NCBI GenBank assembly: GCA_030068145.1
Contig: JAPJBO010000453.1
Span: forward strand, 62,001-126,000
Source: Diplonema papillatum
Lineage: Eukaryota > Euglenozoa > Diplonemea > Diplonemida > Diplonemidae
Reading direction: 5' to 3'
Length of the DNA stretch: 64,000 nucleotides
Within the stretch, counting starts at the first letter, position 1. Every line of letters begins with the position of its first letter. This document shows, piece by piece, positions 2,807-12,260 of the stretch. The position numbers and the translations under genes were made by a program. The notes under the pieces are model-generated. The model ran no database searches, was not told the origin of the DNA, and was given only the letters and a program-made list of their open reading frames with translations.

Positions 2807-2923
2807 TTTAGTACACGGTAGGAACTGGAGCAAAGCGCATGGCAGGATGAGCACACCACCCGAGCCTACAACAGGAGACTTCGGGTGGGCTGAGGTGGGT
2901 CTTCTGAGACTGAATTCTTCTTC
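2807..2923 (+). repeat. Split direct repeat A1 of element 1
   Basis: This 117-bp repeat begins TTTAGTACACGG and ends GAATTCTTCTTC, and recurs without visible difference as A2 at 6789-6905. It contains the ORF1 start codon at 2847, so A2 also carries the first 25 codons of ORF1, out of context. Confidence 0.92.
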
Positions 2924-3668
2924 GCTAGAAGCGTGGAAGGTAGCAGCTCTACTCGCGGATGCGTCGCTGATCAACCCGCGGATTCTGAAGCTGGCAATGA
3001 AGGCTAGCTCCAAGTGGAAAGCCGGCGCACCGGAACTCAGGCGCCCGGACAGGGACGACAACGCCGATCAAGAGGGACCCCGCCCACCAACGCCGCCGCA
3101 AAGTCCTCCGATTTCACCTAGGCGGGCTGCCGTCGACGATGGTGCAGCTCTGCGATTGGAGCTCGGAGCCCTTCGCCAGGCGGTGGCGGAGCTGCAGAGC
3201 GTGAAGAAGGGCGCACCTTCGGAGTCGACTCTTCGGTCGTTTGTGGCTGAGGCAAAGAACGTGTTGGACTGGAAGGGACAGATGGCCGTTGACCCGGAGA
3301 CGCTAGTCCGGGACCTTGACGTGGCGTATGTTGCTGGGAGGCGGCATTTGCCAGGTGGTGATCTTCTCCATGACACCTTTACGAGGCTCAAGTGCTGGTT
3401 GATATCGGCGGCGACGACAGACGGTTGGGAAAGCTGCCCTGAGCAGGTGAAGCTCGGTAACGACCTCCTTCTGGACCTCCGTGCCCAGCGCGTCTACGTT
3501 GAGGAGGGAATAAGCCGGAAATCCGTCATGCGCGGTCTCCAACAGTTAACGGATGATCCGTTCGACAAGGTCGTGGCCGGGATTCGAGGACAACGCGAAA
3601 AGTCGGAGCGTCCGAGGCGGCAGTACAAGAAGTCGCAGGGAAACGGAAAGGCCGGAGGGAAACATTGA
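2847..3668 (+). CDS. Gag-like ORF1 of element 1
   Basis: A 273-aa protein that is the positional and sequence counterpart of the 347-aa ORF1 of element 2. Shared blocks are an N-terminal stretch (here EAWKVAALLADASLINPRIL, residues about 31-50) and a C-terminal stretch containing YVAGRRHLPGG, LKCWL and YVEEG. The C-terminus is strongly basic (RRQYKKSQGNGKAGGKH), as expected of a nucleic-acid-binding Gag-like protein. No zinc knuckle is visible. The middle (about 70-95) is Pro-rich. The stop is TGA followed by CTG, and the same frame stays open beyond it into the recombinase, so ORF1 might be extended by readthrough. The Gag role is inferred from position and basicity only. Confidence 0.75.
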   Translation: MSTPPEPTTGDFGWAEVGLLRLNSSSLEAWKVAALLADASLINPRILKLAMKASSKWKAGAPELRRPDRDDNADQEGPRPPTPPQSPPISPRRAAVDDGAALRLELGALRQAVAELQSVKKGAPSESTLRSFVAEAKNVLDWKGQMAVDPETLVRDLDVAYVAGRRHLPGGDLLHDTFTRLKCWLISAATTDGWESCPEQVKLGNDLLLDLRAQRVYVEEGISRKSVMRGLQQLTDDPFDKVVAGIRGQREKSERPRRQYKKSQGNGKAGGKH

Positions 3669-11946: not shown

Positions 11947-11966
11947 CCCACCCACCCTTGCCCCCG
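11947..11966. promoter_or_regulatory. C-rich A2/B2 spacer of element 2
   Basis: CCCACCCACCCTTGCCCCC followed by G. It differs at two of 19 positions from the spacer of element 1, although the flanking A and B repeats are unrelated between the elements. The minus strand is a G-quadruplex motif. Confidence 0.6.
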
Positions 11967-12260
11967 GGTGATCGTCTTGGTCGGCGTTGGTACGTCTGGA
12001 CCACTCCTTTCATCCCGTTCGCAAGTCAGTCTGTTGCTAGGTTCAGTGCATGTTTCCTTCCTCTTGACAGGCCTCGAAGATAGCGCATCAGTGGATTAGT
12101 TGAAATGGATTTATCTTAGCTTGAAGATACACGTAGCAGGCGTGGAGTTGCCATGACCTTCCTGGAGTTAGTTGAAATGGTTTTGAGTTGTTATCTTGAA
12201 GAGACCCAGCAGAATCCCCGACGTATCGAGCAGCAGGCAAGGAGATACCGCGACCATTCC
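11967..12260 (+). repeat. Split direct repeat B2 of element 2
   Basis: Second copy of the 294-bp B repeat; it ends at ATTCC against TAC repeats. Confidence 0.92.

Follow-up and report, generated by a model that had tools for sequence, protein, structure and literature searches.

What kind of mobile element lies twice in a single (ACT)n array of a free-living protist, how are its overlapping genes expressed, and what brought it there? These questions are raised by a 64-kb stretch of the Diplonema papillatum genome (hereafter the window), which contains two complete elements, E1 (2806–7148) and E2 (7525–12261). Overall, E1 and E2 are probably (with a probability of roughly 0.75) autonomous, recently mobile tyrosine recombinase (YR) retrotransposons of a VIPER-like type, whose RNA would be read in three ways and whose insertion would be targeted to tandem arrays.

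Two divergent elements in one array

Each element consists of a repeat A1, three coding regions, a repeat B1, a repeat A2, a short C-rich linker and a repeat B2, and the genes are ordered gag, YR and reverse transcriptase (RT)/RNase H (RH). The features are as follows (positions in the window; +, plus strand; a slash within a sequence marks a junction).

2772–2807 (+): left flank of E1, (ACT)n target array; 10 perfect units at 2778–2807; junction ACT/TTAGTAC
2806–2923 (+): E1 repeat A1, 118 bp; 100% identical to A2
2847–3668 (+): E1 gag-like ORF; start inside A1; N-terminus ca. 65 aa shorter than that of E2 gag
3638–3703 (+): E1 proposed −1 frameshift signal; GGGAAAC at 3638–3644; stem 1 of 10 bp; gag stop TGACTGGC; stem 2 ACTGGC with GCCAGT
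3696–4904 (+): E1 tyrosine recombinase ORF; gag frame, with one UGA in between
3665–6574 (+): E1 RT/RNase H frame; −1 relative to gag, opening at the gag stop; RT conservation from ca. 4945
6568–6789 (+): E1 repeat B1, 222 bp; identical to B2
6788–6905 (+): E1 repeat A2, 118 bp
6906–6927 (+): E1 C-rich linker between A2 and B2; resembles the E2 linker (90% over 21 nt)
6927–7148 (+): E1 repeat B2, 222 bp; terminal ATTCC of the element
7149–7517 (+): (ACT)123 separating E1 and E2; perfect units
7525–7628 (+): E2 repeat A1, 104 bp; identical to A2
7632–8675 (+): E2 gag-like ORF
8648–8710 (+): E2 proposed −1 frameshift signal; GGGAAAC at 8648–8654; weak stem 1 of 5 bp; gag stop TGACTGGC; stem 2 ACTGGC with GCCAGT
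8703–9875 (+): E2 tyrosine recombinase ORF; gag frame; GTG start as listed
8672–11548 (+): E2 RT/RNase H frame; −1 relative to gag, overlapping the gag stop as ATGA
11544–11838 (+): E2 repeat B1, 295 bp; identical to B2
11843–11946 (+): E2 repeat A2, 104 bp
11947–11967 (+): E2 C-rich linker between A2 and B2; several C runs
11967–12261 (+): E2 repeat B2, 295 bp; terminal ATTCC of the element
12262–12726 (+): right flank of E2, (ACT)155; perfect units

The gene order and the A1-ORFs-B1-A2-B2 arrangement had been proposed in a sequence-only reading of this locus and were confirmed in both elements, as were the intact frames, the gag, YR and RT/RH ORFs all being open. The repeat sizes given there (117/221 and 104/294 bp) lie within a base of those measured (118/222 and 104/295 bp). 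All four repeat pairs were 100% identical, with 0 differences in 739 bp, and the RT/RH frame overlaps the YR ORF fully in both elements. The A2-B2 linkers (6906–6927 and 11947–11967) contain several C runs and are alike in both lineages, though the surrounding repeats are unmatched; the opposite strand of such a linker may adopt a G-quadruplex. At the internal B1/A2 junction of E2 (11838–11843), four extra bases, GCAG, are present that are absent from both outer ends.

E1 and E2 share 68% identity in RT, ca. 54% in YR and 37% in gag, which bears out the earlier claim of two divergent lineages. The dN/dS values (NG86) were 0.26/2.18 for RT, 0.34/1.80 for the YR core and 0.65/1.50 for gag, and silent sites between the two elements are estimated to be near saturation. 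The description of the pair as 'in tandem' holds for position, both elements lying in one (ACT)n array, but not for origin: a tandem duplication was rejected, given the low RT identity and the 123 ACT units in between. Perfect ACT/AGT runs of at least five units occur in the 64 kb only in this array (10, 123 and 155 units). A repeat of 44 bp (93%) that terminates in a small number of ACT units is found both just left of E1 (2743–2786) and right of the whole array (13287–13330); the latter copy, which carries no element, possibly represents an unoccupied relative of the target.

D. papillatum was the named source of 23 of the 73 RT matches and 6 of the 11 YR matches, one of the latter showing 99% identity across 68% of the query, and none of the RT and YR matches, many of them unnamed, was named as kinetoplastid. 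Together with the many such elements in the 271-Mb assembly, these matches leave a trypanosomatid contaminant, raised earlier as a possible source of the contig, unsupported. A more distant relative, L001 (CAITIQ010000216.1), lies on a contig of a Lake Erken metagenome-assembled genome binned as a delta proteobacterium; it carries a gag-YR-RT set in the same layout, with an RT 34% identical, and its source is most likely a freshwater protist. An Opitutia contig (L002) was rejected as a relative; its sole tblastn stretch falls in an ORF that is presumably a penicillin-binding protein gene. A scan of viral contigs yielded no relative. The host itself had been presented as unexpected. It is indeed not a trypanosomatid, and introns have been reported in ca. 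41% of its genes (PMC10161547), but it is less unexpected than it seemed, because D. papillatum (class Diplonemea) belongs, like the trypanosomatids, to Euglenozoa and the genome paper already mentions TATE-resembling ORFs, among > 60 that resemble DNA-transposon proteins including TATE, MULE and Helitron (PMC10161547). The word 'VIPER' is absent from the main text of that paper.

Copies were sought in the 271-Mb, 2910-contig assembly containing the window. At least 32 places encode a 512-aa RT identical to that of E1 (84 of 2645 RT candidates scored), a count that could err either way since artificial duplication or collapse of repeats is flagged in the genome paper (PMC10161547). Given these identical RTs, activity was probably recent, with assembly redundancy possible; together with the identical repeats within each element, they strengthen the earlier 'possibly active' to probable activity. 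The genome-wide search for copies sharing the A/B repeats, proposed earlier as a check, returned 145 occurrences of the exact E1 A-start word and 252 of the B-end word, against 0 for the reversed controls. Among 30 E1-family RT loci, the tail comprised one A-linker-B unit in 25, none in three, three in one and at least two in one. Solo A-linker-B units, with A-start and B-end 358 bp apart, were found on contigs C11, C14 and C15. At L015, at L029 and on contig C34 (L051–L055), two or three such units follow one another, as though mini-elements had inserted at the terminus of a resident element.

Insertion in tandem arrays

The E1 junctions read ACT/TTAG on the left, ATTCCT/ACT on the right and ATTCCT/TTAG at the internal B1/A2 site. 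Across the 30 E1-family RT loci, the right end was visible in 26 and read TACTACTACTAC, in (TAC)n, in 26/26. The first 30 listed A-start places comprised eight internal B/A junctions and 22 external left ends; 16 of the latter lie in ACT arrays and six do not, and 19/22 read ACT/TTAG. Four of the six non-array ends belong to short A-to-B derivatives (154–460 bp), and the remaining two (L044 and L048) have no B in the locus. The E1 junctions would fit conservative integration; a target site duplication inside a repeat array would be invisible.

Arrays also flank the other lineages. Tandem arrays of at least 150 bp were present in 16 of 18 right flanks, as against 3 of 20 places picked arbitrarily and 7 of 96 tiles of the window; the flanks were chosen plus-strand places rather than a random sample, and the comparison of counts is a descriptive one. 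Twenty right flanks had been fetched, two of which (L099 and L104) ran into contig ends and were excluded; six first-look flanks stand outside the 18, and two of the 16 array-positive flanks (L112 and L113) do not show the element end. Array units vary within a lineage: one has CA, GT, 10-bp and 13-bp units, another 24, 41 and 102 bp, and a third 23, 41 and 63 bp. In 12 of 15 junctions, the terminal ATTC is no more than 5 nt away from the array edge, and in eight of these it coincides with the edge. On the left side, arrays were found in 4/4 elements of other lineages, the exact junction being clear for the CA case only.

The varied unit sequences across lineages suggest that array structure or its chromatin, not sequence alone, guides integration. 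The odds seem to us about even for a broader proposal, in which VIPER-like elements would recognise arrays as such, one lineage entering arrays with unrelated units (CA, GT, 10 and 13 bp) by the same ATTC terminus, E1 being narrowed to ACT and telomeric TATE being one case, and would combine this with a Gag-RT frameshift and a YR gene nested in an unconstrained linker. An alternative, which we judge unlikely, is that the array location reflects selection, other insertions having been lost, or growth of the array after insertion. Tandem arrays may be tolerated places, and the few ACT units in the related flank at 13287–13330 imply that array length can change, but copies with an identical RT in 32 places look young, leaving little time for filtering. 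Moreover, the CA, GT, 10-bp and 13-bp arrays on the right of a single lineage indicate that the array is not carried by the element, and all visible E1 right ends are in ACT. With its many young-looking copies, this free-living protist makes the target choice of tyrosine-recombinase retrotransposons testable. Elsewhere in the window, perfect 21-bp arrays and two arrays sharing one 16-bp unit occur at 34788–34966, 35381–36007, 55534–55961 and 56828–57227; these are possible targets for related elements.

Expression of the overlapping frames

In E1, E2 and L001, YR lies in the gag frame, one UGA downstream, and RT in the −1 frame of gag. The RT frame is stop-free across all 402 (E1), 390 (E2) and 425 (L001) YR codons, and only 2 (E1), 0 (E2) and 1 (L001) per 20,000 synonymous-codon shuffles kept it open across YR. 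Its amino acid identity in the YR overlap was 0.29 versus 0.263 ± 0.020 expected from YR alone, with 200 of 2000 shuffles as high. Thus, the frame appears to be kept open, not detectably for its protein. No RT-frame ATG occurs in E1 from the gag stop (3665) to 5036, and conserved RT sequence begins upstream of 5036.

The heptamer GGGAAAC, of the form X XXY YYZ in the gag frame, is located 28 nt (E1) or 25 nt (E2) before the gag UGA. Among 28 additional genomic loci from other lineages, 19 also have it (13/20 and 6/8). The first 20 gag-stop regions included 13 with the heptamer in frame and seven without; six of the next eight were clear, L084 (5' part of gag replaced by a satellite) being kept as a lineage and L085 not. 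Ten lineages were compared for the signal (E1, E2, L064, L068, L070, L073, L086, L088, L090 and L084). A GC-rich stem 1 begins 4–7 nt after the heptamer and is 7–10 bp long in nine of them and 5 bp in E2; its loop contains UGACUGGC in the ten lineages. For stem 2, ACUGGC can pair with a downstream GCCAGU (GUCAGU once) in 10/10 lineages, the heptamer likewise being present in 10/10; the probability of finding such a hexamer by chance in 44 nt after shuffling is 0.5–3% for each lineage. The heptamer and both arms of both stems were found in 24/30 E1-family loci, in three sequence versions. The six loci without the signal look 5'-shortened, as an ACT run lies within 1.5 kb upstream of RT in each.

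In stem 1, two-sided changes affected five of ten pairs (17/500 shuffles as high) and 11 cells (equalled by 0/500 shuffles), and the covariation score was 0.353 against 0.174 ± 0.034 in shuffles (0/500 reach it) and 0.05–0.15 in slid controls, which retain relatedness. The number of pair types was reached by 159/500 shuffles. Single-sequence folding was weak (z = −1.69 in E1, +1.17 in E2 and −1.80 in L001), and a two-stem knot was reached by 67/500 shuffles of E2 and by 0 of E1. L001 has neither the canonical heptamer nor such a knot, and an Rfam search returned nothing at gathering scores. As judged from these alignments, a Gag-RT fusion is probably produced by −1 frameshifting, with GGGAAAC as the slippery site and the gag stop lying in an H-type pseudoknot; this would be a covariation-backed explanation of how such an element can express YR and RT from overlapping frames. 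The proposal that YR is made when ribosomes pass UGA-CU, or restart, is the more tentative of the two.

Accommodating these features, one element RNA would be read three ways. Most ribosomes would terminate at the gag UGA. Some would slip −1 at GGGAAAC, aided by the stop-containing pseudoknot, to yield Gag-RT/RH, and would traverse the YR gene in the other frame as an unconstrained linker; YR would come from others that read in frame through UGA-CU or that restart. RT would copy the RNA, using the A/B repeats, into a circle with a B/A junction (ATTCCT/TTAG in E1), and YR would join this junction to a target within a tandem array, mostly ACT/ACT for elements of the E1 type and arrays of many sequences for other lineages. 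The replication steps follow the published Ngaro/PAT repeat model as cited in PMC6681497.

RT might instead be produced by termination-coupled re-initiation at a start codon overlapping the gag stop, with the fold serving re-initiation or packaging. ATGA at the gag stop in 5/10 lineages (E2, L064, L068, L070 and L073) would permit this, L001 has ATGGTGA, and re-initiation accounts equally well for an RT frame that stays open through YR. However, TTGA is found in E1 and in the 24/30 family loci holding the region, and E1 offers no RT-frame ATG before 5036, yet 32 places share its RT; a further four lineages (L084, L086, L088 and L090) have GTGA. Nor would re-initiation call for a heptamer of the X XXY YYZ form, in frame and 25 or 28 nt ahead of the stop, as seen in 10/10 lineages; we put the chance of re-initiation at about one in five. 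Improbable, too, is a separate trans-spliced mRNA for each ORF, as in genes of Euglenozoa, with the YR/RT overlap as mere compaction: spliced-leader RNA genes are reported in the D. papillatum genome paper (PMC10161547), but this would give no reason for an RT frame that is stop-free across YR without protein constraint and would leave the covarying stem at the gag stop unexplained.

Affiliation with known YR retrotransposons

The residues R246, K275, H335, K338/R339, H366 and Y382 of YR were invariant in 14 aligned relatives, several of them partial. The catalytic residues of tyrosine recombinases are R, K, HxxR, H and Y; at the HxxR place, the present proteins have K, with R adjacent. Phage integrases (PHROG phrog_1) were matched by 2/14 members, P0086 at 2.8e-8 and P0084 at just 0.051. 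The E1 and E2 YRs themselves gave no match to PHROG integrases, the YR profile gave none in Pfam or PDB, and tblastn of YR against plasmids gave nothing. The putative YR identity rests on the invariant R-K-H-(K)R-H-Y set and the two integrase-matching relatives.

The RT/RNase H profile, built from 45 relatives, matched the solved RT/RNase H structures of the CaMV polyprotein (E 8.3e-12) and Ty3 (3.8e-7), and the RNase H family PF17917 was detected in 22/45 members. D126 of motif A was invariant in the 45 rows. The motif C pattern was found in 66/74 RT proteins, as D-N in 63 and D-G in three; P0092, from a later search, has D-D. Because the D-N of the family aligns on the catalytic VDD in the CaMV/Ty3 profile alignment, the second aspartate appears to have been lost, and a retroelement RT lineage with D-N replacing the catalytic D-D poses a biochemical question. 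In RNase H, D365, E403 and D478 were invariant and D428 nearly so among 16 aligned members. An RT tree of 67 of the 96 proteins (at least 430 aa, two removed) placed E1 and E2 among named D. papillatum proteins, E2 grouping with DIPPA_03852 (P0004; support 100/100). The whole family stood apart from two distant outgroups, P0095 and P0096 (99/97; very long branches), which we presume to be DIRS-like from their YLDD/YIDD type.

The VIPER-like architecture put forward in the sequence-only reading is supported by the ORF order, the overlapping YR/RT frames and the split direct repeats, and the overlap in gag-YR-RT/RH order is found in E1, E2 and L001. E1 and E2 fit a VIPER-like type by layout; the RT tree, which contained no named sequence of VIPER or TATE, is silent on VIPER versus TATE. 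Elements with this layout have been described in kinetoplastids, where TATE is cited as lying inside telomeric hexamers (PMC6681497). VIPER itself has gag followed by overlapping YR and RT/RH, and A1 ... B1-A2-B2 split direct repeats that are identical in some copies (Ribeiro et al. 2019, PMC6681497). The short A-linker-B derivatives correspond to the present elements as SIRE does to VIPER, and some RNase H similarity to hepadnaviruses may be shared, being seen here in 2/45 members (PF00336, best E 1.1e-4). In contrast to VIPER, the present host is a diplonemid and the target consists of tandem repeats, and the account of VIPER in PMC6681497 describes no frameshift-type pseudoknot. TATE of kinetoplastids has the same layout, with copies clustered in a tandem repeat, namely telomeric hexamers in Leishmania braziliensis (PMC6681497, PMC12278014), whereas the present elements lie in microsatellites and satellites. 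Titles and abstract openings in the literature searched, largely outside subscription journals, included none on diplonemid VIPER-like elements, their array targeting or frameshifting. The present elements extend intact elements of VIPER-type layout beyond kinetoplastids.

DIRS1-like elements likewise carry gag, YR and pol ORFs, YR and pol overlapping over a long stretch in half of 28 elements, but they have inverted terminal repeats, internal complementary regions and a methyltransferase (PMC3266345). In positions 1–15000 of the window, no inverted repeats of at least 40 (seed 14) were detected, DIRS1-type inverted terminal repeats being absent, and six proteins searched had no methyltransferase Pfam match. 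Ngaro-like elements, for example those of Cafeteria burkhardae, share the A1-[ORFs]-B1A2B2 arrangement, a YR replacing the integrase and scattered solo AB repeats, but their order is gag, RT/RH, YR (PMC8547959); in E1 and E2, RT/RH is downstream of YR. That the elements are Ngaro-like or PAT-like and resemble VIPER in layout only is improbable: both groups also have A1-B1-A2-B2 repeats, structural features are homoplasious (PMC4157794), ORF overlaps are described as not usual in Ngaro and Viper (PMC3266345) and the tree had no named VIPER or TATE member, but in the present elements YR is upstream of RT and nested in the RT frame, PAT carries a methyltransferase, and overlapping YR and RT/RH ORFs in the present order have been described for VIPER/TATE (PMC12278014).

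Two D. papillatum proteins of the RT family in nr (P0053 and P0047) bear unexpected names: one, labelled putative target of rapamycin (TOR) kinase 1, is evidently misannotated, and the other is labelled TcC31.12; a literature search for the name TcC31, carried by one D. papillatum RT fragment, gave no lead. Elsewhere in the window, the ORF at 41151–42098 presumably encodes a pentatricopeptide-repeat protein, and we take that at 62526–63530 to encode a CrcB/FEX-type fluoride exporter.
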